64,000 nucleotides of DNA from assembly GCF_032854445.1 (NCBI RefSeq), contig NC_088302.1:39376191-39440190 (forward strand), read 5' to 3'. The position numbers were made by a program, and so were the translations under genes. Positions 7,901-63,884 of this stretch are shown in pieces. The notes under the pieces are model-generated. The model did no database searches and was not told the DNA's origin. It saw nothing but the letters and a program-made list of their open reading frames with translations. Source of the DNA: Liolophura sinensis (lineage: Eukaryota > Mollusca > Polyplacophora > Chitonida > Chitonidae). Each line of letters opens with the position of its first letter. Positions within the stretch are counted from its first letter, which is position 1.

Positions 7901-10900
7901 CCTTCAAGTCCGTGATGATCTGTACATAGACTGCTGGGATGATGCCCACTTTGACCATCATCTCAGATTTACAGCCTCTATACCTGTTTTATATACTCAA
8001 CAGAGTTACCTACCCTTTTTCTTTAATGATCTGTACGTAGGCTGCCGGAAAGATGCCCACTCTGCCTATCACCAGGGATTTACAGCCTCCATACATGTGT
8101 TATATACGTATTTGTCAGCAGAGTTACCTACCCTTTTTCTTCAGGTCTTTAATGATCTGTACGTAGGCTGCCGGGAAGATGCCCACTCTGCCTGTCATCA
8201 CGGATTTGCAGCCTCCATACATGTGTTATATGTATACGTATTTGTCGGCAGAGTTACCTACCCTTTTTCTTCAGGTCTTTAATGATCTGTACATAGGCTG
8301 CCGGGAAGATGCCCACTTTACCCGTCATCTCAGACTTTCCCTTCAGCCACTCATCATTTACCCACTCCAGCAGGATCACTTTGTCTGCCTCCCGGAAGCT
8401 CAGGTCATCAGCTGTCTCACCTTTAAACTCGTGGATAGCAATAGAGTAAGCCTCATCATCCAAGGATGTGTCACTCTGAAGCAACAATACACTCATTTAT
8501 TTATGTGATTTATCTTTTACACCATACTTAAAACTGTACAACAATGGTTAGGTTTGGAGGATGGAGAAACCAGGTAGATAGAGGAACCACGATAGCCTGA
8601 CACAAGCTGACACAAAGTCCAAACATGAATTCAAAACTGTTATCCACAGCGATGCCAGGGACCACGCTACTGAGCTTTTAACACTTCTACTAGACTGATG
8701 TCTATCAAGTTCATGTTAATGGGGGGAAAAAGTGAAAAAAATTGGCAGGAATTAACTGGATTTGAACTACAGGCAGCTAGATACAATGCCCACTAGACTT
8801 ATGTGAAGACCAGTGGAAAGAAAATAAACATTGCTTTCAGAGAGCAGTGCTGGACTATATGCATTTCCAGGGATTTACTTTGCACACTCTGCACAAAAAC
8901 TGTGTGCTACATAGTGGAAATAAAAATGAAAAAATAAAGAAGAAAAAAAATGGAAAGGAATGTACTGGATTTGAGCATTAGACTGCCAAGTATCATTTAC
9001 AATGGGCCAAGAAATGAAAACCAGCATAGAGATTAAGCGGCTTTGCTCTTCTGTTGATAGCCAAGAGCAAAAGAAAGAAAGAACACATTGTTTTAAAGTT
9101 GGTGCCTTACAACAGAAGACAAATACATTTTTGTAAAGTTGATGCCCGTTCCCATGGTAAACTGCAGTGACAAGCTTCATGCAGTCTTTCATAATGTATC
9201 CAGTTTTGTACAGATCACCTGTTCATTCTGCACAGTTCCTTACTTGTGGAGTCTGTACTCTTGGTTCTTCGGCTGGAGGCTGTTGTTTTTCTTCTCGTTT
9301 CTCTTCGTATTTCTCCTTTTGTTTCTTTTTTTGTTCTTCTGTTTTTTTCTCTTCTCGTTTTTCCTTTCTTACATGTTCAGATGCCTCTTGTGTTCCTGCA
9401 GCAGTCTCCTTCACAGTTTTTTTCACCTTTGGCCCCACATACTGCGGCAAATGGAGAGGCATGTCATCGATGAAAGCTGACGGAAACTTTCCCTGTTTTC
9501 CATTGGCTTCTCCAAACAACCAATCAGCACTGACGTAGCTGATCAGCTGAATTTTATCTCCAGCCTGAAAATATAAGTATTAGAACATCATTAGATATCA
9601 AGGTATAAAATATCAACATAGACCATGAGTACAGACGTTCAAGAACTGAAATTTAAAGGAACCCTTCAGAATATCAATGAAAGAGCATGTTGTTAATTTT
9701 TGACTGATCTTTCAAAATTTTCACACAGGCTACATGTACCTTTCCTTGGCTGTTCAAGATGTTTTCAGAAGAACATGAACACTTACCTTAAAACTTAATT
9801 CTCCTTCTTCTCCATTAAAGGTGTACATAGCTTCTCTAACCAAACTGTTATCTGATTGGCTCCTTGCTGACCAATCATTGTCGCCTGAAATGTCCCCTGG
9901 GGTGGCTGGTAAATCCTCAATTACTTCCACGAATGTTGCAGGGAAAATACCAATCTTGCCATTCAACTCCCCTCTGAGCCAATCCTCACCCACATGTTCT
10001 AACAGCTTAATTATCTCCCCTTCTAAAAATGTCAAATCTTCACTGGTTTCGCCGTCGTAGTCGAATCTGGCTTGGCATCGTGGCCCACTTGCTGTGTCCT
10101 GGTCGATTCCGTCCCCGAAGTCTACTAACATATCAGCAGGAGCACCAGCAGAAGCCTGATCATGTAATTGAACTCCCTGTAAAAAAACAACAAGGGACAC
10201 ATCTGAAGTCACACACAATCTCACACACAATGGTAGCATGCAATTCACTTCTTCTTACAGTTAGCTATTTTTTTTTTCTAATGACCCTCTCGTATATAAT
10301 ATTTGAGACAAAAATAATTAAAGTACATGCAAGTTTGGCATTTAAAAAAGAATTTTCTTCCAATTCACACAAAGTTTGTTTTAAACATAATTAATAATAA
10401 CATTGATCACGCTGAGCATTTCCATTTTCATCCACAACAATATGAAAATGACGGATGATTTAATGACAGCCTTGTATGAAGCACATACTTCCTCCACTGA
10501 AATACCACTACACTTTAAAATGAAATACAAATACAAAGGTGAGAGGAAAGGGGGTTATTAAAGGTTTAAAAAGCTACCATATTTTCACATAAAGTTGAGA
10601 AAGTTTATCATATTTCAAGTGACACATTTTGCTGGATTCTGATTGGTTCAACCACCTTTACATGGCTACTTAGAAGTTTGTGGTAAAGTTTCATTAATTT
10701 CTTATCAAAAAACTTAAATGTTTTTTAAAAGTATGATTTTAAGGCCTTTATGTGCTTCTAAAATTTAATTTTTAAATAATAAACTTTAGATAGAATACAG
10801 AAAAATTAATTTTATGAGAAACAAGCCTTAAAATTCAGAATAACTGAAACTTCCCCCCAAAAGGGCTCATCATTAAATGAATGACTGATAAAAGACAGAA

Positions 10901-48758: not shown

Positions 48759-51700
48759 CTGGATGTTCCTTGGACTGAATTGGGTTTATATTGAAAACAA
48801 AGAGAAACTTTCCAAATCTGATAAGCTCATTCCTATTTGTGGACGTACTCCCTTTCTGTATTAGCTGGGGTTAGGAAATGGGAGGTTAATTATTATTTGG
48901 GTTTTTTTTTCTTTGGACAGAATTTTTCAATTTTGAAATAACTGTTCATATAAATTGATTTGGAAAATAAAGTTTAAAAATGTACATTAGCTGACCATTG
49001 TCAGTGGTTAGAGCAAATATTACAACATGTCAGAATCGTTGTTGAGGTCCGGCTGTAAGTTTTTTCTGTGTCCAGGTGAGACAGGGAAGTACTACTGTGG
49101 GATGAAGGTGCTGACCTGTAGCTGTTGTGATGGCCAGTGTGGACCTGACAAGGGCTGTAACTGTCCATCATGTCAGCTGCTGGACCAGGAGGACCAGGAA
49201 CGAAAAGAGGAGGAGACTGTCAGGCCCCACCCATCTGCCCCACTGATTGACTCCTGGACATGGGGACAACAGCCAGGTAAATGTGTAAAACATTCTCATC
49301 GTGTGATACAAGTACATCCACGCATTCTTTTGCCAGAATAGACAGTGGTATGTGATGTACGTTGTTCTTGTTATGGTGGTGGTTGTTGCAACCAGAGAAA
49401 TGACCTTAATACCTGAGGAAAAGGGTTTTCATTGTTCAGCGGGACACTTTTAGAAGCTAACAGTTTTCAGGTAGATTCAACGTTGAACTTTTTATGTAAA
49501 AGTACCTATGTCTTGACATGTTGCAGATAAAATTTACAGGTCTGGGATGAAACTTTCACAAGTGAATTTTCTTCTGTGTAGATAAAAAGGAAATTGTATT
49601 AATTGTATCAATTGTGTTACGAGAAGAGTCACGATACTAATTTTGCAGTAGGTAACTTGTGATATTTTGTAATATTTGTTGGTACCGATGTACCCATTCT
49701 TGTAGTTGGGAAAAATCACCTTCCATACACAGCGTATTATTATTGGTAAGCAACAACATGCGTGCAGTTTTAGTTTTCCAGTGTTGTGTTTCCATGGTAA
49801 CAAGGACAACAGGCAGTATATTCTCTGACAAGAGAGAACAAGTGTTATTGTGACTGTCATCATTTATGAGGCTAGTGACAGATTGGGCCGTGAGTTAACA
49901 AACTCCTAAACAGTCCAGGAGAGATAGTAAATCAGCCATACTGTATGCGCTTCAGTTGGACATTTTGGATTACACAAGTGTTGAACACCTATCGTTACAT
50001 GCACATATGCTGCAGAATCACAGGTGGTCCACTAAACAGGTCTGTCAATTTATCAGCATATACCACAGTTTAAGGGAAAGGTTATGTTGATTGAGGCAGA
50101 TTGCTTTATTTCAGAAAATCAATATGACTTGAAAGCATTGCACCGATGTATTTAAGGATTCTTGGAAAATAATCTCTAAAACACAGTGTGGTTTTACAGG
50201 AAGAGAAGAAAGCTATTCCAAAATTTTTTTGTTAAAATTGCATTTTTGAGGCATATTTTATGCTTATTTTCTTCCATGGTCAGCAATTTTCAGACGTGAA
50301 GTCAAGGATGAGCTGAGCGAGTTAATGAGATCTCACTGTTCACTGCAGGGTATTTAATTTGCAGACTGACCACTGGGATCCTAATAAAACTTAAGTTTAA
50401 AGACATTTCTATGCCCCATGAACCTTTATTTAGGGCACATCCTAAACCGCATATTAAGAAAAAAAAATTAAATGTTTCATTTATCCTTCAAATTTTCATG
50501 ATGATTATTATTACGATGAGCACTACACATTACTCAGTCACGTATTACGATGTGCACTACACATTACTCAGTCACGTATTACGATGTGCACTAAACATTA
50601 CTCAGCCACATATTACGATATGCACTACACATTACTCAGCCACGTATTACGATATGCACTACACATTACTCAGTCCCTTATTACAATGTGCACTACACAT
50701 TACTCAGCCACGTATTATGATGTGCACTACACATTATTCAGCCACATATTACAATGTACACTACACATTACTCAGTGACAGTCCCGTATTGCGATGTACA
50801 CTACACATTACTCAGTCACGTATTACGACGTACACTACACATTACTCAGTCACGTATTGTGATGTACACTACACATTACTCAGTCACGTATTACGATGTA
50901 CACTACACATTACTCAGTCACGTATTACGATGTACATTACACATTACTCTGTCACATATTACGATGTACACTACACATTACTCAGTCACGTATTACGATG
51001 TACACTACACATTGCTGTCACGTATTACGACGTACACTACACATTACTCAGTCACGTATTACGATGTACACTACACATTACTCAGCCACGTATTATGATG
51101 TACACTACACATTACTCAGTCACGTGTTACGATGTACATTACACATTACTCTGTCACATATTACGATGTACACTACACATTACTCAGTCACGTATTACGA
51201 TGTACACTACACATTGCTGTCACGTATTACGACGTACACTACACATTACTCAGTCACGTATTACGATGTACACTACACATTACTCAGCCACGTATTATGA
51301 TGTACACTACACATTACTCAGTCACGTATTACGATGTACATTACACATTACTCTGTCACATATTACGATGTACACTACACATTACTCAGTCACGTATTAC
51401 GATGTACACTACACATTGCTGTCACGTATTACGACGTACACTACACATTACTCAGTCACGTATTACGATGTACACTACACATTACTCAGCCACGTATTAC
51501 GATGTACACTACACATTACTCTGTCACATATTACGATGTACACTACACATTACTCAGTCACGTATTACGATGTACACTACACATTACTCAGTCACGTATT
51601 GTGATGTACACTACACATTACTCAGTCACGTATTACGATGTACACTACACATTACTCAGTCACGTATTACGATGTACATTACACATAACTCTGTCACATA

Positions 51701-54700
51701 TTACGACGTACACTACACATTACTCAGTCACGTATTACGATGTGCACTACACATTACTCAGCCACGTATTGCGAGGTACACTACACATTACTTAGTCACG
51801 TATTACGATGTACACTACACATTACTCAGTCACGTATTACGATGTACACTACACATTACTCAGCCACGTATTGCGAGGTACACTACACATTACTCTGTCA
51901 CATATTACGATGTACACTACACATTATTGTCACGTATTACGATGTACACTACACATTATTGTCACGTATTACGATGTACACTACACATTACTCTTACATA
52001 TTACGATGAGTTTTCATTGTTAAAACTTATACAGTTGCTAATGAAGAGATGGAGTTTGGTGATTTAAGACTTTGTTGTGATGTTTTAGACACTGTGTCTT
52101 GTGTGTCTGCTAGTGGTATGTGAAGTCAAACTCTACATAACAAACACAGGTCTCGAGCCAGAGTTGAGGTGAAAAGAAGTCACTGAGCCAAGTTAAGTTA
52201 ACAGTCCACACTCTTTACCTCCACTGTTGCTCAACAGTATGAGCACAGTCTGTGTGCTAATTACCTGGGCTGATATTTAGACCAGACTCCCCACTTGGAT
52301 GTCAAGTGCTGAAGATAGCAGATCTGTGAGGGCACTCTTCTGCCTTTCCACAACCATTTGAGTACCTGGTATCTTCTGTGGTATATTTGGCAATTAGCTC
52401 TTAGGTTATTGCCAGCATGTGTATAGAAAGTACTTGGATCACTTGATTTTGGTCACAAGCTAATACTATAAAGATCTTGGTCGTCTTAAGATAGTTTTTT
52501 TTTTCTTTTAACCTGACCTATATTACCATTCCACCTGTTGTACAAAACTCACAGCTGTACATGGAGTTGAAGATTGAGCATCAAATGGGAGACTCGAAGG
52601 CAGCTTTTTCTGATTTTGATTGAGGCTGAATTATCGAACTGTATTTATTTATCTTGTTTAATTGTTTTTTGATCAAATAAATCACTGATGAATCATGCAA
52701 TTTGGATGGATGTATTTTACAGTTGAAACTGCTGAAGTTGACGAATTTGTGTTAATAGCAGATTTCTTTCTTTTTTTCTTTCTTGTGTTTGTGAAGTATC
52801 AGATACCAAAATCTGAACCAAATTGCCCGAAGCCGGGATGTTTTTATAAACAAATCAGTAGCAAAACTCATATGGCTGAATGGAATTATTATTTTTTCTC
52901 TGTTTGAGAGATAATACCATCTGTTCTGCTGTTAACTTTAAGAACAGTGGGTATTAGGGGTGCAACTTGACCTACTCTGCATTTGAACACAATTTGTATT
53001 TTCTGTGGGTTATTTGTTTTGGCTGTGTGCCAGTTACTGCCAAACCACCGCTTACATTTTCTAGGTACCTCTGCAGGTGTCTTACAGCACAGTTTTATCT
53101 CTCGTTAAAATGTCTATTTTGACAGACAGGTAGATTGATTATTTGTCTGTTCCTGCTTCAAGATTGTCAGAGTTTTGAATTTCTGTCACCTCAGAACTAA
53201 GCCAGCTTAAGGAGTGCTTAAGGTCCCTTATCTACGAACAACAACAACTCTCCCTGGAAACGGCCAGCTCAACCCTCTCATCAACACGCTTACAACAACG
53301 ACTCGCCGTTCTCCAGAGATATTTCGTGGCGTTGTCAAGGCAACCCAGCGCAGAAGGCAAAACTCCGACCAGGAAGAAACAATCAAATCAAGCTAACCTC
53401 AACAAACAGAAAAGGTTAGATCTGTCTCCTTGTTACTAATCATAATAAATTTATGGTAATATTTGTTTTTTCTCATACGAAGTGAAACAGTTTTGAGTAC
53501 ATGTACATGTGTGTACTGTGCTGTCTCTGTAGCCAGTTAATAAAACTTCTGGTAAGTTCACATTCAGATTATACCTAGAGTGTAGGAAAAAGCTGATGAT
53601 ATTTACTTTTGTACATTTTACTTTTTGTATTTTGGAAACCATTTTTGTGGTAAGAAAAATTATGACTCAGTTATGATTTCTACATGTAATTTGTATTTGT
53701 TGACAGTAAATCTAAGCCTGCAGAGCGAGCCACTACAGGACTGGCCCGTGTGGGGTCACGAGCTGCCCTCAGTTTTGCCTTTGCCTTTCTGCGCCGTGCG
53801 TGGCGCTCTGGAGAAGATGCCGACCTGTGCTCGGAGCTATTACAGGAGTCGTTGGACGCGCTGCGCTCTCTTCCCGAGGCCACGCTGTTTGATGAGGGGT
53901 CTGTGTCAAATGTTTGGCTGGAGGTTGTGGAAAGGGCCTCCAAATTCCTCCGCTCAGTTGTCGCAGGGTAAGTAAGAAATGTGTATTTGTTCTTATTATA
54001 TGTCTTTTAGATTTAATATGAGAAAAATGTTTAAAATAGTCTTCATTGCTTTCTAGTGTATTATTATATTATCAATCAATCATTCTTCTAGGGACCTGAA
54101 TGGAGGAGGGGCGAGCGCTAAGGGCAGTAGTAAGGTGCCTGTTCAGGACCAGCAGACTGCCTTGGCCTTGCTCCTGGAGCTGGCTGTACAGAGAGGCTCC
54201 CTCAGTCACATCCTCAATGTGGTTCTGCTACTCCTGAACCTGTGGAATAACAGTCGTCATGAGTTTGACAACCGCATCAGTTCTAACCTGCTCTGTGCAC
54301 CACTAGTCCCCTTTATTAGACACTTCTGTGAAATCCAGAGCCCTAAGGGCAAGCTATCGGAGATGTCTCGCTGGGATGAGGTGAGTTAAATATGGAGACA
54401 AATTACAAACATTTTTATTTAATTGAGGTTTTACATCGTACTCAAGAATATTTCATTTATACGACGGTGGCCCAAATTTGTTTGATCTGAATTTGAAAGT
54501 AGTTAGAGTAAGTACATGGGGATGATGGTGTTACATTTTTCTATTATTTTGTGTATGTTTAGGTTTGCAAATACGTTTGGTAAAATGCAACCACGTAAAT
54601 CTGGACAGTTTCTAATTTGTCTGTAAACACCTTCACTCATTCTCCATAGATTTGGAAATGTCGCAAAAGTCAGGGAGACCCTAGTTACATTTATGTCTGT

Positions 54701-59400: not shown

Positions 59401-62400
59401 TATTTCAGGGGGAAGGGGGATAATTTCAGACTAGGCCATGGTACAGAGGAACATATACGACATCCCAAACAGATAGAGGGGTTGTCTGGGAAGAAGATAG
59501 TCGACATAGCCGTGGGATCAATGCACACCTTAGCGGTCACTGACGAGGGCGAGGTGTTCAGCTGGGGCCGGAATGACCAGGGTCAGTTAGCAGATGGGGC
59601 CGTGGCCAGTAAGGCTGACCCCACTCTCATGACCTGTTTGGAAGGAAAGCACATCATCGGTGTAGCTTGTGGCCCTGCACAGGTAGGCTGGACTGATAAC
59701 TGTAGGCACACCTGTGTGGTTTTACCTGACTGATATCAGGAAGATTGAATGAGCCCAATAGGCTTCAACCAGTGAAGTCGTTGATTCAAATTCAGGGGGT
59801 GTACCAGATATTTGGAGAGGTTGGAAGGTTTCCTCTGAGCTCTACTCAGTTTCCTCAACCCAAAATCCTGGCCACTGTCACATGAGTGAAATATTATTGT
59901 GCGCGACATAAAACATCAGTCAATTACATACCTAAGTGAAATATGTGACGATAAGTAGATATAAACCTGTGTGACTGAATATTACCTGGCTGTTTTAGTT
60001 ACTGACAGTTCAATTTTAAAGTTAGTGTTGAAAGAAACAACAGATCTGTACATGCTTTACACCTATGTGTATGGTTGTTCACCTTCTATGGTAATGCATA
60101 TCTTGCTGATTTCATGAGTTGTTTAGACATGCAGACTTTTTTGTCATTCGAGGAAGTGAATCCACCCTAATTCCTCAACCATTTCTTATACCATTATTTC
60201 TTCCTCTCCCTGCCTTCCTCTCACCATCAGAGTTTTGCCTGGTCATCCAGTGGACAGTGGAGTGTAGGACTAAGGATCCCGTTTGTAGTTGATGTGTCCA
60301 AGTCAACGTTTGAGCAGCTGGACGAACTTCTAGCTGAGGTGTGTGAGGGGATGGATGGGAGAAATGACTGGCCCCCACCCCAGGAGAAAGAGTGCATGGC
60401 TGTGGCTGGGTTGAACCTCCTCAACTTACAGGTAACCACGATAAGCACTTATATAAGTGGAACACTCACCTGGTGTTATTGGAATGTGTTAAGTAGTGTT
60501 CATTAGGAAGGCTCTGGGATGAAGCAAATTGTCTAGTCTAAGCCTTTATTACTGCTAATTAACAGAGTATTTTTTATGTGTATGTCCTCAGAAAATAAAG
60601 CTTTGCATATGTTGACTTGTACTTTATGTATTCAATGATGAAATAACTAATTGATTACTGTTGTTAAGTATTTCTCAGTACTGTGAATGCACCAGTATTC
60701 TTCACATGTGCGTATAACTCACAGGGTAAACTTGGCCATAAGTATTCTGGAAAAACATCTGTACCTGTGTATATGATGCACCCCAATCATTCCCTTGGGG
60801 TTTGTCCTCATAATAGCCTGCTAATAGTGTGCGATCAGCTGTGATCAGCTAAAACAACGTGCTGTGCGCCAGTGGGTTTTGACACCTGCTAACATATGGT
60901 CAGGTAGCGGTGGTAGACCTACCAGGTTGCATTATAAAGCCATACCTGTGTATATATCATGTAAATACATGTATTGTCTGAGTTTTGTTCTATTTAGAGA
61001 TAACTCAGTTAACTTGTTAGAGCTCCTGTACCAGTGTGCAAGTGACTTGTAAATTGGCTGCACAACTTAAGATAGCGGCTGCATCGATATGCTTAGAGCT
61101 TGCTGTATCCTTACAAAATCTTCCTAGTTAGTGGCTCCTGTATTAAAAATAATTTGTCTCAACCAAAACTTGAAAATGTTTGATGACAAGGACTCGAGAC
61201 TTGAAGGATTTGGAATGGATGATTTGCCGCTGAGCGATCTTAAGAACCATTAATGGGAGTGCAGTTCAAAACCATGTGCTTGTGCAAATTAATAGTTGAC
61301 CTTCATGGAAATGTGGCTCTGTTTTGATTGTAATGGTTTTTCTCCAGATTCCATCTTAAAAAACTTCACCTTTGCTTTCTTAAAAACGTCACTAACATAT
61401 TATGGATTAATTTCTTTTGTTGTTTGTTTTGAACATTTTTATTGATGACATGCTGGCAAGTACCGAGTAGCCATGTTTACTTCTGGTTTCCCAACACATT
61501 GTTTGAGCACTCATGGGAGTTATCAGCAGCCAGTTTTGATGGAAATAAATCACCCAACTTCTATTCTACTGTGTAATACACACACCCTTGATAAAAAGCT
61601 TAATTCTTGGAAAAAAACATGTGGAGTATAATGGTGTATTTACAGTAGTTGGAAATCAAATTTGTTTACAATTACTGTACGATATTTGCATAGTTTGTTC
61701 GTTCAGTGTGGACAAAGAAGCACACTAATACAGCTTTTTGTGTTATTTTGGAATCACGTCTTCAGAAGAAAAAAAACAAATTTAGAAGAGAGAAGAATTT
61801 CTTTTAGAACATAGTTACAAAGTATGATTATGATGAGTGTGTTTACTGGCTATATGCGATTGTCCAAACTGTAACCAAAACAGTGTGTTTGGGTCAACCA
61901 TTGTTGTTTGTCATTTCAGCTGTATGCTGCGGTTTCACAAAATGAAAGTACAGACTCTCTTGGCCTTGGTACTGGGAGCCCTCTGGTGGCTAGCCTTAAG
62001 CACAGAGTTGTCTCCCTTGCAAGTAACACTGGTGTGATCAACACAGTACAGCGGGCTGCACAGGCAGCTCTACAGAGTGGCTGGTCCATCCTGCTGCCCA
62101 CAGCAGAGGAAAGGGCCCGGGCACTCTCTTCACTTCTCACCTCAGGGGGTGTGTATACTATCGTCTTGTAGCTTTGCAAACATATTTTGAGAAAATAAAT
62201 GACTTTAATGAATGATTTCAATGTATCTATAAATATCTAAAGGAATATGAAAAACATCAAATTGTTTTAATGCAAGTAAGTGTTTAAACTTTTCATATCA
62301 CAAATAAGTGAAGGCTAATTTGTGGTTGTCTTCGCAAATTAGGGTTTGTATCTCATGTGTAGGTATTAAGATTTAGTGTAACATATTCATGTTATGTCAG

Positions 62401-63884
62401 CAGTATCTGGAGGATGTGTCACATATCAATAATACCTGAGCAGTATCTGGAGGTTGTGTCACATATTGATAATATTTAAGCAGTATCTTGGAAGGTTGTG
62501 TCACATTGATGTTATCTCAGCAGTATCTTTGGCAGTTGTGTCACATTGATGTTATCTCAGCAGTATCTCTGGAGGTTGTGTCACATTGATGTTATCTCAG
62601 CAGTATCTGGCGGTTGTGTCACATTGATGTTATCTCAGCAGTATCTCTGGAGGTTGTGTCACATTGATGTTATCTCAGCAGTATGGAGGTTGTCACATTG
62701 ATGTTATATCAGCAGCATCTCTGGAGGTTGTCACATTGATGTTATCATAGCAGTATCTCTGGGGGTTGTATCACATTGATGTTATCTTAGCAGTATCTCT
62801 GGAGGTTGTGTCACATTGATGTTATCTCAGCAGTATCTCTGGAGGTTGTGTCACATTGATGTTATCTCAGCAGTTTCTCGTGAGGCTGGTGTAATGAGCC
62901 CAGGTCAGAGATTCATGACAGATCTACTGGTAAGTAGTCTGATGGCTGACGGAGGGTTGGAGACGGCTCTACAGGCTGCCATACAGAAGGAGGTGCGTGA
63001 ACTTGAGGATAGAAAGGTAAGCACCCAAACATATTTCTGTGTAAGGATTATTGCATCTAAGTCAGTTATCTATTTTTTTTTTAAATGACTGAGAAATGTG
63101 AACTGTGCGAAATCAGTTTTTGCACAAATACACTCAATCTGAATATCTGATATCTGACCAAGTGAATTTCATTTACACTAATTCCTCAAGATTTTCTTCA
63201 CATATTTTAGAGCAATTTCTGCAAGCTGTTTATTTGATTTTAGAGACAAAACATGACAAGTTAGATTGGCAAGTTTCAGGACTTCACATGAAGTATAAAT
63301 TTATCAGTTAACATGTAATAATGCCTTCAGAATATGCTTGCATAAACACCTTGCAAACAGATAAAAAGGTTGAAGAATGACAATATAACAAGAATTGTTT
63401 TGCCGGCAATAAGTGGATGACAGTGTTTGTAGAGCTGTCACTTCTTCCGTGAAGTTTACAGGAGATTGCTTGACTTCTATTAATACACAATGCATGCACA
63501 ATGAGCTCACTCCAAAGGTGAAACTAAGTGAGCGCTATTAAACAAAAGTGGGAAATTAATTACCAAAGACTGGTGATTTACTCATGACATTAAAGTGAGA
63601 AATGTTGTTGCATATAGTATCAGAAATCACCTATGCTCTCCATATGTAAGGCAGCAGGGTGTGTGACAAATGTATTGTGATTTTGTGGGATGTCTGTTTA
63701 CATTTTATGTACTGAAGGAGAAAGAGCGCAAAACCAGCGAAGAAGGTGATGAAGATGATAGTAAATCAGAAGGGGCGACCATTTCCTCCAAGAAAGAGCA
63801 GACTGCTCTGAATCGTAGCCGAGCCAATTCCGACGATTCTGGCACCACCATTCCATTACTGCAGCTGATACAGCAGCTACTTAG
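33079..63884 (+). CDS. HERC2 E3 ubiquitin ligase, N-terminal part (16 exons)
   Basis: Exons: 33079-33153, 38910-39027, 49076-49276, 53195-53414, 53707-53967, 54092-54380, 55256-55417, 56005-56202, 57035-57186, 57789-58048, 58449-58620, 59409-59682, 60231-60431, 61920-62148, 62871-63016, 63718-63884. All phases join: 3125 bases, 1041 codons plus two bases, continuing past the window. The order is N-terminal [20 protein letters not shown], Cys-rich exon (residues 66-93), a helical region ([20 protein letters not shown]), the first RCC1-like propeller (about 443-810) and the post-propeller segment ending in [11 protein letters not shown]. Similarity to human HERC2 is strong throughout. HERC2 is a ~4800-residue cytoplasmic/nuclear HECT ligase known for DNA-damage ubiquitin signalling and partnership with NEURL4 and UBE3A. 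HECT, CPH, DOC, ZZ, Cyt-b5 and the other two propellers lie outside. I see no frameshift or broken site. Confidence 0.96.
33479..33719 (-). mobile_element. tRNA-derived SINE lacking its tRNA head
   Basis: The body is close to the family consensus (gccgtactcaagaatatttc, accgggcacagcccggggga, gacttgaactcacagcgact), but the element stops at gctgcgctt, before the A box. The tail is a run of T (A on the minus strand), not (TAAA)n. Confidence 0.88.
34951..35093 (-). mobile_element. 5'-truncated SINE copy
   Basis: Only the 3' body and tail are present (gattggtgttttacgccata ... catccgcacatcgctggcag). It is flanked by tggacattgat and tggatattgat, an 11-base target duplication with one mismatch, as expected for target-primed insertion of an incomplete copy. 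Confidence 0.82.
38910..39027 (+). CDS. HERC2 coding exon 2
   Basis: The acceptor is tttgtatttcag/TTGGC (phase 0) and the donor gtaggt (phase 1). [20 protein letters not shown] matches human HERC2 nearly residue for residue. The last third ([19 protein letters not shown]) is variable. Confidence 0.94.
39806..39961 (+). mobile_element. 5'-truncated SINE with 12-bp target duplication
   Basis: A plus-oriented copy starting inside the body (ccggctgtatgtgggaaggt) and running to caatcaaataaataaataaa. The sequence acaaacagatga occurs at 39794-39805 and 39962-39973, an exact target duplication. The copy lacks the tRNA head. Confidence 0.9.
41253..41425. repeat. Interspersed repeat family Y, copy 2
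   Basis: Similar to 10605-10760 in the same orientation. A T-rich expansion (tgtttttgtttttttgtttt) interrupts this copy in the middle. Confidence 0.5.
42150..42300. repeat. Interspersed repeat family X, reverse copy
   Basis: The reverse complement matches 3875-4095: gttcttcaacctttttgca, ggtgtttattcatgc, and ctgaaataggccaatccaat. Divergence is moderate. Confidence 0.55.
44539..44640 (+). mobile_element. Diverged SINE head fragment
   Basis: ggccgagtggttaacatgct resembles a tRNA A-box region, and gagcctctcaccaatgcaag matches the SINE head that follows. The B box is not clearly preserved and the body is absent. Confidence 0.5.
44893..45201. mobile_element. SINE with an inverted 3' half (fold-back)
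   Basis: A full plus-strand SINE (44893-45098, B box gagttcaagtccagctcatg) is followed directly by a minus-oriented copy of its 3' body (45099-45175) and then a short caatcaaataaataaataaa tail. The inverted arms are about 75 bases and meet at caaacttatttatt. The structure is the same as the pair at 26608-26822. Confidence 0.85.
46905..47100. repeat. Interspersed repeat family X, copy 3
   Basis: Same orientation as 3875-4095. Landmarks are attcttcaacctttttgca, tttcaagcatattctttg and aagccctgaaattgg. The far end carries cgaaaaggttgaggaaaggg where the 3875 copy has aataggttggggaataaggg. Confidence 0.55.
47584..47668 (+). mobile_element. SINE 3' end fragment
   Basis: ccgtcgtataagtgaaatat ... 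gtaaaactccaatcagataa is the SINE 3' body with a short internal duplication of the aagtgaaatattc segment. Confidence 0.75.
48726..48760. repeat. (GT)n(AT)n microsatellite
   Basis: Runs of tg then ta dinucleotides in HERC2 intron 2. A similar compound CA/TA run lies at 18809-18840. Confidence 0.92.
49076..49276 (+). CDS. HERC2 coding exon 3: cysteine-rich exon
   Basis: The acceptor is tttttctgtgtccag/GTGAG (phase 1) and the donor gtaaat (phase 1). It encodes 67 residues. The first part has eight Cys spaced C-x6-C-x-C-C-x3-C-x5-C-x-C-x2-C ([20 protein letters not shown] and following), likely zinc-binding. The end, [12 protein letters not shown], matches the human HERC2 SILDSWVWGKQP segment, which fixes the assignment. 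From memory the human protein has a charged low-complexity stretch in place of the Cys-rich part. Confidence 0.9.
49277..53194 (+). other. HERC2 intron 3 with a 1.5-kb minisatellite
   Basis: Apart from the array at 50513-52005 the intron is single-copy and A+T-rich. The ORF pair near 49534-49863 lies on both strands and has no recognisable similarity. Confidence 0.75.
50513..52005. repeat. 34-bp minisatellite, about 44 units
   Basis: The unit is actcagtcacgtattacgat followed by gtacactacacatt. Variants include ctcagccacgt, ctctgtcacat and shortened attgctgtcacgt units. Within it a higher-order block of about 202 bases repeats (attgctgtcacg at about 51011, 51213 and 51415). Because no stop falls in any forward frame of the unit, long ORFs (up to 397 codons) run through it; they are artefacts of the repeat inside an intron. 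Confidence 0.96.
53195..53414 (+). CDS. HERC2 coding exon 4
   Basis: The acceptor is tgtcacctcag/AACTA (phase 1) and the donor gttaga (phase 2). [20 protein letters not shown] and [20 protein letters not shown] match the human helical region after WGKQP. The C-terminal part ([18 protein letters not shown]) is basic and variable. Confidence 0.93.
53707..53967 (+). CDS. HERC2 coding exon 5
   Basis: The acceptor is atttgttgacag/TAAAT (phase 2) and the donor gtaagt (phase 2). [20 protein letters not shown] and [20 protein letters not shown] are almost identical to human HERC2, the most conserved stretch in the window. This is an alpha-helical part of the N-terminal region. Confidence 0.97.
54092..54380 (+). 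CDS. HERC2 coding exon 6
   Basis: The acceptor is attcttctag/GGACC (phase 2) and the donor gtgagt (phase 0). [34 protein letters not shown] matches human HERC2 ([19 protein letters not shown]). The end ([18 protein letters not shown]) is more variable. Confidence 0.95.
54381..55255 (+). other. HERC2 intron 6
   Basis: A small SINE 3' fragment in minus orientation lies at 54417-54473 (catcgtactcaagaatattt). Nothing else was recognised. Confidence 0.65.
54417..54473 (-). mobile_element. SINE 3' end fragment
   Basis: It matches about 57 bases of the SINE 3' body (gaggttttacatcgtactca ... tatacgacggtggcc) and nothing of the head. Confidence 0.75.
55256..55417 (+). CDS. HERC2 coding exon 7
   Basis: The acceptor is tatttttccccag/TCTGG and the donor gtatgt, both phase 0. 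[16 protein letters not shown] and [20 protein letters not shown] match human HERC2 (NESFLRYLTLPQDNE, IDLRQTAVVVMAHLDRLATP). Confidence 0.96.
55418..56004 (+). other. HERC2 intron 7
   Basis: Single-copy A+T-rich sequence; no repeat or coding signal was seen. Confidence 0.6.
56005..56202 (+). CDS. HERC2 coding exon 8: entry to RCC1-like propeller
   Basis: The acceptor is tcctgtaacag/CGTGC and the donor gtaacc, both phase 0. [13 protein letters not shown] and [20 protein letters not shown] begin RLD1 (human EVIGWGLIGWKYY ... CAEKRFLILSRNGRVY). Confidence 0.94.
56203..57034 (+). other. HERC2 intron 8
   Basis: A SINE (56375-56630) with a long TTTA tract (56375-56420) fills a third of this intron. 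The rest is single-copy. Confidence 0.65.
56375..56630 (-). mobile_element. tRNA-derived SINE with long TTTA tail
   Basis: Minus orientation. About eleven tttattta-type units form the tail; the body is partly deleted (the ccagcattatg part is missing); the head ends at gtggctgaggtggctagcgt. Flanks gtattct and atattct could be a degenerate target duplication. Confidence 0.82.
57035..57186 (+). CDS. HERC2 coding exon 9: RLD1 blade
   Basis: The acceptor is atgttctag/TGCCC (phase 0) and the donor gtaagt (phase 2). It encodes [20 protein letters not shown] and [15 protein letters not shown], a classic RCC1 repeat signature. Confidence 0.96.
57187..57788 (+). other. HERC2 intron 9
   Basis: Single-copy sequence without recognisable elements. 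Confidence 0.55.
57789..58048 (+). CDS. HERC2 coding exon 10: RLD1 blades
   Basis: The acceptor is atgtatattacag/TTCGA (phase 2) and the donor gtaagg (phase 1). Two RCC1 repeats: [20 protein letters not shown] with [20 protein letters not shown], and [20 protein letters not shown]. It is almost identical to human RLD1. Confidence 0.97.
58049..58448 (+). other. HERC2 intron 10
   Basis: Single-copy A+T-rich sequence; no element was recognised. Confidence 0.55.
58449..58620 (+). CDS. HERC2 coding exon 11: RLD1 blade
   Basis: The acceptor is cttgtgacag/GTGCT (phase 1) and the donor gtgagt (phase 2, splitting the TGG codon). It encodes [20 protein letters not shown] and [20 protein letters not shown], matching human RLD1 ([20 protein letters not shown]). 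Confidence 0.97.
58621..59408 (+). other. HERC2 intron 11
   Basis: The intron holds a plus-strand SINE (58849-59068) and otherwise single-copy sequence. Confidence 0.65.
58849..59068 (+). mobile_element. tRNA-derived SINE, full length but diverged
   Basis: Head cttggcctagtggttagggt-type A box, B box tgagttcaaatccacttcat, body gcggtttcctctcaccttaa, and tail caatcaagtaaataataaat. It is among the older copies. The head sequence tggcctagtggttaggg shows the tRNA relationship especially well. Confidence 0.82.
59409..59682 (+). CDS. HERC2 coding exon 12: RLD1 blades
   Basis: The acceptor is gtatttcag/GGGGA (phase 2, completing Trp) and the donor gtaggc (phase 0). It encodes [54 protein letters not shown] and [10 protein letters not shown], two further RCC1 repeats. 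Confidence 0.97.
59683..60230 (+). other. HERC2 intron 12
   Basis: A decayed plus-strand SINE occupies about 59745-59930 (gttgattcaaattcagg B box, cagtttcctcaacccaaaat body, ataaaacatcagtcaattac end). The rest is single-copy. Confidence 0.6.
59745..59930 (+). mobile_element. Decayed tRNA-derived SINE
   Basis: The order B box, ggtttcctctgagctctact, ctggccactgtcacatgagt, aaatattattgtgcgcgaca, aaaacatcagtcaa follows the family, but with many differences. The A box is unclear. Confidence 0.65.
60231..60431 (+). CDS. HERC2 coding exon 13: end of RLD1
   Basis: The acceptor is ctctcaccatcag/AGTTT and the donor gtaacc, both phase 0. [20 protein letters not shown] closes the propeller, and [18 protein letters not shown] with [20 protein letters not shown] matches the human region directly after RLD1. 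Confidence 0.97.
60432..61919 (+). other. HERC2 intron 13
   Basis: 1.5 kb of single-copy A+T-rich sequence. No exon, SINE or tandem array was seen. Confidence 0.6.
61920..62148 (+). CDS. HERC2 coding exon 14
   Basis: The acceptor is gtttgtcatttcag/CTGTA (phase 0) and the donor gtgtgt (phase 1). [40 protein letters not shown] and [13 protein letters not shown] match human HERC2. A donor three bases later (gtgtat) would also keep an open frame but not the phase of exon 15. Confidence 0.94.
62149..62870 (+). other. HERC2 intron 14, mostly a splice-site minisatellite
   Basis: About 245 bases of single-copy sequence, then the 40-bp array at 62394-62870, which runs straight into exon 15. Confidence 0.85.
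62394..62870 (+). repeat. 40-bp minisatellite containing the 3' splice site, ~12 units
   Basis: The unit is gttatctcagcagtatctct followed by ggaggttgtgtcacattgat. The last copy of its first ten bases is the functional acceptor of exon 15 (gttatctcag/CAGTTTCTCG). The first ~28 bases of the exon align with the repeat (cagtttctcgtgaggctggt against cagtatctctggaggttgtg), so the unit spans the intron-exon boundary. The 5' units are more diverged. Confidence 0.95.
62871..63016 (+). CDS. HERC2 coding exon 15
   Basis: The acceptor is gttatctcag/CAGTT (phase 1) and the donor gtaagc (phase 0). [20 protein letters not shown] and [20 protein letters not shown] match human HERC2 (SPGRRFMIDLLVGSLMADGG). 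Any upstream copy of the acceptor in the preceding array would bring an in-frame TGA within ten codons. Confidence 0.93.
63017..63717 (+). other. HERC2 intron 15
   Basis: The intron contains a reverse copy of family X (63310-63385). The rest is single-copy. Confidence 0.6.
63310..63385. repeat. Interspersed repeat family X, reverse fragment
   Basis: Matches the reverse complement of the 3875 copy end: gaatatgcttgcataaacac, ccttgcaaacagataaaaag, and aaaaaggttgaagaatgaca. Confidence 0.55.
63718..63884 (+). CDS. HERC2 coding exon 16, last in the window
   Basis: The acceptor is atgtactgaag/GAGAA (phase 0; the tract before it is only moderately pyrimidine-rich) and the donor gtgagc (phase 2). 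It encodes a charged, Ser-rich linker ([20 protein letters not shown]) and [14 protein letters not shown], matching human [16 protein letters not shown]. The gene continues beyond the right edge. Confidence 0.88.

Follow-up and report, generated by a model that had tools for sequence, protein, structure and literature searches.

The window analysed here, a stretch of 64,000 nucleotides (G000:C8:39376191-39440190), carries exons of a chiton HERC2 gene. This identity, already proposed in the initial annotation, is borne out by the alignment of a human HERC2 protein sequence in 68 collinear pieces, which run through the window and on into 54 kb of the 80 kb beyond it, as well as by RCC1 repeats upstream of the array described below and HECT exons downstream of it. 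A search for a HERC2 paralogue or spliced retrocopy found none (three candidates were scored, and both matches were the window's own exons), and the solved structures gave a single, chance-level match for this part of the protein (E 0.44). Exon numbers follow those of the initial annotation, the first HERC2 exons being putative. The assembly was published as that of Liolophura japonica; a correction renames the species L. sinensis (PMC12441733). Amphioxus, which the literature on such arrays had suggested as host, was rejected on account of the mitochondrial gene order given below.

Intron 14 separates two exons that join in frame, and the start of exon 15 that had been placed at 62871 is fixed by the reading frame. 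Donors modelled for HERC2 have a median score of 9.2 bits; the GT donor of exon 14 at 62149 scores 6.6 bits, and the donor directly 3' of exon 15 (GTAAGC at 63017) scores 11.6 bits. About two-thirds of intron 14 is filled by a minisatellite that spans the boundary between intron 14 and exon 15, terminating at that exon's 3' splice site (Table 1).

Table 1. Coordinates of the HERC2 exons, of the array at exon 15 and of other arrays lying on exon boundaries. Plain positions are those of the window; the prefix L denotes other loci.
Feature	Coordinates	Strand	Description and basis
Exon 14	61920-62148	+	ends TCAGGGG, phase 1; reading frame and protein alignment
Intron 14	62149-62870	+	722 bp
Minisatellite	62385-62878	+	40 bp x 12.6 (TRF); a second call gives 80 bp x 6.3, ending at 62879
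Units 1-3, distal end	62401-62520	+	acceptor scores, unit alignment
Units 4-12	62521-62870	+	acceptor scores, upstream identity runs
Real acceptor TCTCAG/CAG	62865-62873	+	exon start 62871, alternative 62874; reading frame
Exon 15	62871-63016	+	146 bp; reading frame
HECT exons of HERC2	C8:39491203-39493667		downstream of the array
Donor-side mirage, same HERC2 gene	L009:1885-2440, on to ~2462		114 bp x 5, copies end (A/G)G/GTAAGT
Acceptor-side array, last HECT exon	L030:1075-1533		acceptor and codons of the LPTSHTCF loop repeated at ~52-bp spacing
Donor array, RhoGEF gene	L041:976-1515		19 bp, 28 copies; boundary by eye
Donor array, RhoGEF gene, paralogue of L041	L042:1147-1515		19 bp, 19 copies; judged from TRF and likeness to L041
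Donor array, RhoGEF gene	L053:1605-3147		boundary by eye
Acceptor array, RhoGEF gene	L054:1024-1553		boundary by eye
Donor array, RhoGEF gene	L062:1013-1544		boundary by eye

Counted from acceptor to acceptor in the unit alignment, 12 units (40, 40, 40, 40, 40, 38, 40, 34, 38, 40, 40 and 40 bp in order) lie between 62401 and 62870 and precede the real acceptor, which agrees with the earlier estimate of about twelve 40-bp units lying directly against exon 15. The distal units are the most diverged, units 1 and 2 being 60% and 65% identical to unit 5, while units 5, 7, 11 and 12 are identical to one another. The array returned one match when searched against the whole assembly with a method that skips very common words.

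Splice sites were scored with acceptor and donor tables built from 56 of 65 HERC2 introns, which come from automatic models taken as they stood. The acceptor table covers 23 positions. Nine introns were excluded, eight of them for falling below thresholds and the ninth being intron 14 itself; one of the 56 retained introns, in the second HERC2 array, had a wrong donor (96283 for 95951), its acceptor being unaffected. The leave-one-out median for true HERC2 acceptors is 7.7 bits. With 6.3 bits, the real acceptor of exon 15 stands at roughly the lower third of these sites; its tandem alternative at 62874 scores 2.7 bits and would yield a protein with one alanine fewer. The site is thus a NAGNAG acceptor (CAGCAG) with two tandem NAG registers, both of which are in frame and open.

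The initial annotation held that a typical unit contains the same sequence as the real acceptor and that the last of about a dozen near-identical acceptors has to be chosen. Near-identical acceptors do exist, and the identity is exact at six of the 12 upstream sites (62521, 62561, 62601, 62639, 62679 and 62831), which score exactly 6.3 bits and share 26-67 upstream bases with the real site; that stretch therefore cannot discriminate them from 62871. Exact identity does not extend to the remaining six, where the acceptor is changed to GAG (62441), AAG (62481) or TAG (62751 and 62791) or where upstream bases vary (62401 and 62713); these score 5.7 (62401), 4.9 (62713), 4.0 (62791), 3.5 (62751), -3.6 (62481) and -6.7 bits (62441). 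Downstream of the acceptors, exact identity between exon and unit ends after four bases (three for 62713), and a looser likeness fades after about 28. By a crude count, GAR-like purine motifs occur at 0.103 per base in exon 15 versus 0.039 in the array.

Splicing to any of the 12 upstream acceptors, in either NAG register, places a stop 6-33 codons past the junction, and only 62871 and 62874 stay open. Alternative sites with premature stops, as in poison exons subject to nonsense-mediated decay, are thus present throughout the array. The premature stops foreseen from the sequence were found at all 12 sites, although the more specific expectation of a TGA within ten codons needs amending: a stop falls within ten codons for 10 of the 12, but after 12 codons for 62713 and after 33 for 62601, and translation first meets TAA when 62401 is used and TAG when 62713 is used. 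Extended exons starting at the nearest upstream sites would measure 186, 226 and 266 nt. The 47 modelled internal HERC2 exons range from 106 to 334 nt, and exon size alone therefore cannot exclude such extended exons.

The first 28 bases of exon 15 (62871-62898) resemble the unit, as had been noticed before, when the two are compared in register from the acceptor. Their match score of 10 exceeds the highest value among 56 other exon starts in HERC2 (7) and was reached by 2 of 2000 base shuffles. These bases probably represent the coding portion of the segment that was originally duplicated. The human HERC2 exon has AVS at the corresponding position, an indication that the exon preceded the array; the similarity together with this human sequence would give the direction from exon to array. 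Growth of the array out of the intron-exon boundary, the origin put forward initially, is supported by the similarity between exon and unit and by the contrast of diverged distal with identical inner units, a pattern that fits an array grown from the boundary and turning over inside, with its edge left behind.

Boundary-spanning arrays recur elsewhere in the genome (Table 1). Within the same HERC2 gene, the end of another exon and its GTAAGT donor are present in five copies, and reading on past any of the four extra donors leads to one common stop. Beyond HERC2, such arrays were found in 6 of 61 sampled loci (HECT 1 of 25, RhoGEF 5 of 25, RasGEF 0 of 11), or in five if the paralogues L041 and L042 are counted once. 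The loci were the best-scoring 25 of 62 HECT, 25 of 43 RhoGEF and 11 of 21 RasGEF matches; some overlap (L014/L019/L026, L016/L018/L029, L017/L022 and L030/L034 among others), and L037 is HERC2 itself. By a criterion written down beforehand, no boundary-spanning array was found in the best 11 of the 21 RasGEF matches. The gene at L030 is UBE3A-like. An array past the end of a HECT gene (L038:1623-2299, 98 bp x 6.8) repeats its last codons and the stop, which was placed by eye, and was excluded from the count.

On the assumption of two boundaries per locus, random placement of segment starts predicts 0.67 (HECT), 0.43 (RhoGEF) and 0.17 (RasGEF) boundary arrays, or 1.27 in all against the 6 of 61 observed, while random placement of whole arrays, on the same assumption, predicts 5.27, 3.81 and 0.62, or about 9.7. 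The excess over the first of these nulls across the sampled loci is suggestive only. Among the 14 arrays of HERC2, enrichment on exon boundaries was not found, 2 lying on a boundary versus 4.0 expected under random placement. The data do not need a special attraction of arrays to boundaries, and a preference is unproven.

As far as the literature search shows, the HERC2 array is a known kind of structure, the mirage, in a new phylum; Canestro 2002 is said to be the founding paper on mirages. The name, given for Adh3, denotes a minisatellite-like duplication of the intron-exon boundary, as in amphioxus globin genes (PMC3087553), and lancelet PGBD5 and troponin C (TnC) show mirages too (PMC3902484). 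For amphioxus mirages, RT-PCR that suggests regular splicing is reported, as are unstable copy numbers (PMC3087553, PMC3902484). In chiton HERC2, the units are tandem and minisatellite-like and the boundary lies inside the unit, AG occupying the boundary position in 12 of 12 units and the exon holding 28 bp that resemble the unit; the genuine boundary and the coding frame are intact, a feature that we ourselves added to the definition. The amphioxus cases (Adh3, the globins BflGb6 and BflGb9, PGBD5 and TnC) likewise have minisatellite-like units across an exon-intron boundary, on the donor or the acceptor side, keep the AG or GT signal in many copies and, as reported for BflGb6, leave edge units out of homogenisation. 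The 40-bp chiton unit falls inside the range given for Adh3 (10-72 bp). In contrast, their hosts are cephalochordates and the host of the HERC2 array is a mollusc, a difference that is not mechanistic; BflGb6 is described with 6 and 3 repeat units in two haplotypes, compared with 12 extra acceptors in HERC2; and the acceptor multiplied in the chiton is a NAGNAG.

Other known systems share part of this picture. Human genes in segmental duplications contain internal tandem repeats, and variable tandem repeats at their boundaries may form new introns (PMC2812944); a minisatellite expansion can sit at an exon-intron boundary in these genes as in HERC2, but they are recently duplicated paralogues with half of the repeats in coding sequence, whereas the HERC2 array is intronic and no paralogue was found. 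NAGNAG tandem acceptors (PMC3250501) share with HERC2 the CAGCAG at the real acceptor with both registers in frame; HERC2 differs in carrying the NAGNAG 13 times, in 12 units and the real site, at a spacing of about 40 bp. Intron gain by tandem genomic duplication (PMC4974935) likewise involves local tandem duplication that copies splice signals, but no new intron is seen in chiton HERC2. A literature search covering mostly papers that are free of subscription found no mirage outside cephalochordates; within that coverage, mirages outside cephalochordates, and in several genes of one mollusc, are new.

The reading that we favour, with a probability of about 0.85, is that the array is a mirage, local tandem duplication here copying exon edges into introns, where the copies are tolerated. 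A segment of about 40 bp, consisting of the end of intron 14 (a possible branch point and the TTATCTCAG acceptor) and the start of exon 15, would have been duplicated in tandem; slippage or unequal exchange would then have added further copies towards the intron, with the exon-side copy left intact. From the coding frame we infer that 62871, the last acceptor, is most likely the one that is mainly used: it alone has the real exon body directly after it, and of all the acceptors it lies nearest to the strong donor at 63017. Use of an upstream acceptor would probably be low-level noise cleared by nonsense-mediated decay, since every upstream choice gives an early stop. Tandem duplication of this kind would be blind to exon edges and could catch a donor, an acceptor or a stop-codon region without distinction; arrays would persist where the coding-side copy survives and the surplus copies are spliced out. 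Tolerance of the array would follow from its intact copy on the coding side and from the early stops in mRNAs that are mis-spliced. A tolerated expansion was among the options raised in the initial annotation, and it gains support from the similar arrays on exons of other genes and from amphioxus mirages reported not to disturb splicing (PMC3087553, PMC3902484).

A sub-case that is compatible with tolerated duplication, and that we consider possible though doubtful, is a passive cost: without regulation, a measurable fraction of HERC2 transcripts would be mis-spliced and lost, and copy number would vary under weak purifying selection. In mammals, the upstream of two near-equal competing 3' sites is strongly favoured when introns are short; under exon definition, with both flanking introns long, this preference is significantly weaker, and no reversal is stated (PMC9225289). 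Intron 14 is 722 bp long, and by analogy some use of upstream acceptors is plausible, even appreciable use being possible; such use would carry a cost, which mRNA decay probably conceals. The identical upstream contexts of six sites argue in the same direction, whereas the exon body and the strong donor that follow the real site favour 62871. A regulated arrangement, raised in the initial annotation as a tunable splicing or nonsense-decay switch, in which the acceptor ladder sets HERC2 dosage and copy number or splicing factors tune the share of poison-extended transcripts, could build on the equal scores of six upstream acceptors, on the stops that follow every upstream choice and on the unexceptional size of the extended exons. 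Such a switch is nevertheless very unlikely and has no specific support: comparable arrays lie on donors and acceptors of unrelated genes and on another HERC2 exon, nothing measured singles out this array, two of the upstream acceptors score below zero, and the regular splicing reported for the amphioxus mirages speaks against it.

Chance offers another account, namely that a minisatellite of unrelated origin in the intron stops at a splice site, and resembles the exon, by accident. Minisatellites are dense here, and random placement of the HERC2 arrays would put more of them on boundaries than are observed; however, exon start and unit, aligned at the acceptor, agree in register to a degree seldom equalled by shuffled sequence, and the real acceptor sits in the last unit of the array, which makes coincidence highly improbable. 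Scarcely credible at present is a role of the array as raw material for intron gain, a unit becoming a new small exon or the array shifting the boundary of the intron, along the lines of a model published for amphioxus globins (PMC3087553). Many units do hold an AG acceptor together with a weak donor-like GAG/GTTGTG, but no upstream acceptor has an open frame through to exon 15 and there is no sign of a used mini-exon.

Mirages are discussed in the literature found as a cephalochordate feature, and the donor and acceptor cases in several conserved genes of one mollusc suggest that vigorous minisatellite formation gives rise to them more generally in animals. Each is a natural experiment in how the spliceosome chooses among equal acceptors, or among equal donors, and introns may possibly change through such arrays. 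A broader proposition, which we regard as unlikely, is that boundary-spanning minisatellites are recurrent and lineage-wide in chitons, form with a preference for the edges of exons, DNA structures linked to transcription or splicing being one conceivable route, and differ in length between individuals. If it were true, many conserved genes would carry ladders of equivalent splice sites and, with them, heritable variation in splicing fidelity. Mirages are also a warning for gene-prediction pipelines, near-identical copies inviting wrong exon ends, as with the wrong donor chosen by the automatic model in the second HERC2 array.

Several other arrays and elements were noticed. A 130-bp repeat present in 3.4 copies on the minus strand of the window (7915-8329) contains, in each unit, the terminal part of a coding exon that is SH3-like together with AAGG/GTAGGTAA, so that either a donor or a stop codon is multiplied. 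Upstream of a HERC2 exon, 44 copies of a 34-bp unit (window 50509-52008) contain a stop-free frame of 430 codons that runs into the exon. At L010:784-1311, 18 copies of a 29-bp unit, most of them with an AG (catacacag), form decoy acceptors without exon sequence, and the array ends 37 bp before the modelled HERC2 acceptor L010:1349. A GT-rich array (L007:2656-3108) begins inside the donor sequence of a modelled HERC2 intron (GTGAGTGGGGTCTCTGTTAGTA...). The segment 44256-44333 was considered as a second duplicated acceptor but dismissed: on either side of it lie the CAGGGTGTCCC and ACCCTG ends of what looks like a short transposon-like element.

Seven copies of COX1, one of them a partial match, lie about 15.5 kb apart on contig C99 of G000, and one more lies on C632. 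They are probably copies of the mitochondrial genome assembled in tandem. Read with genetic code 5, the mitochondrial stretch has the order nad3-nad2-cox1-cox2-atp8-atp6 (gene names assigned by eye), which is mollusc-like.
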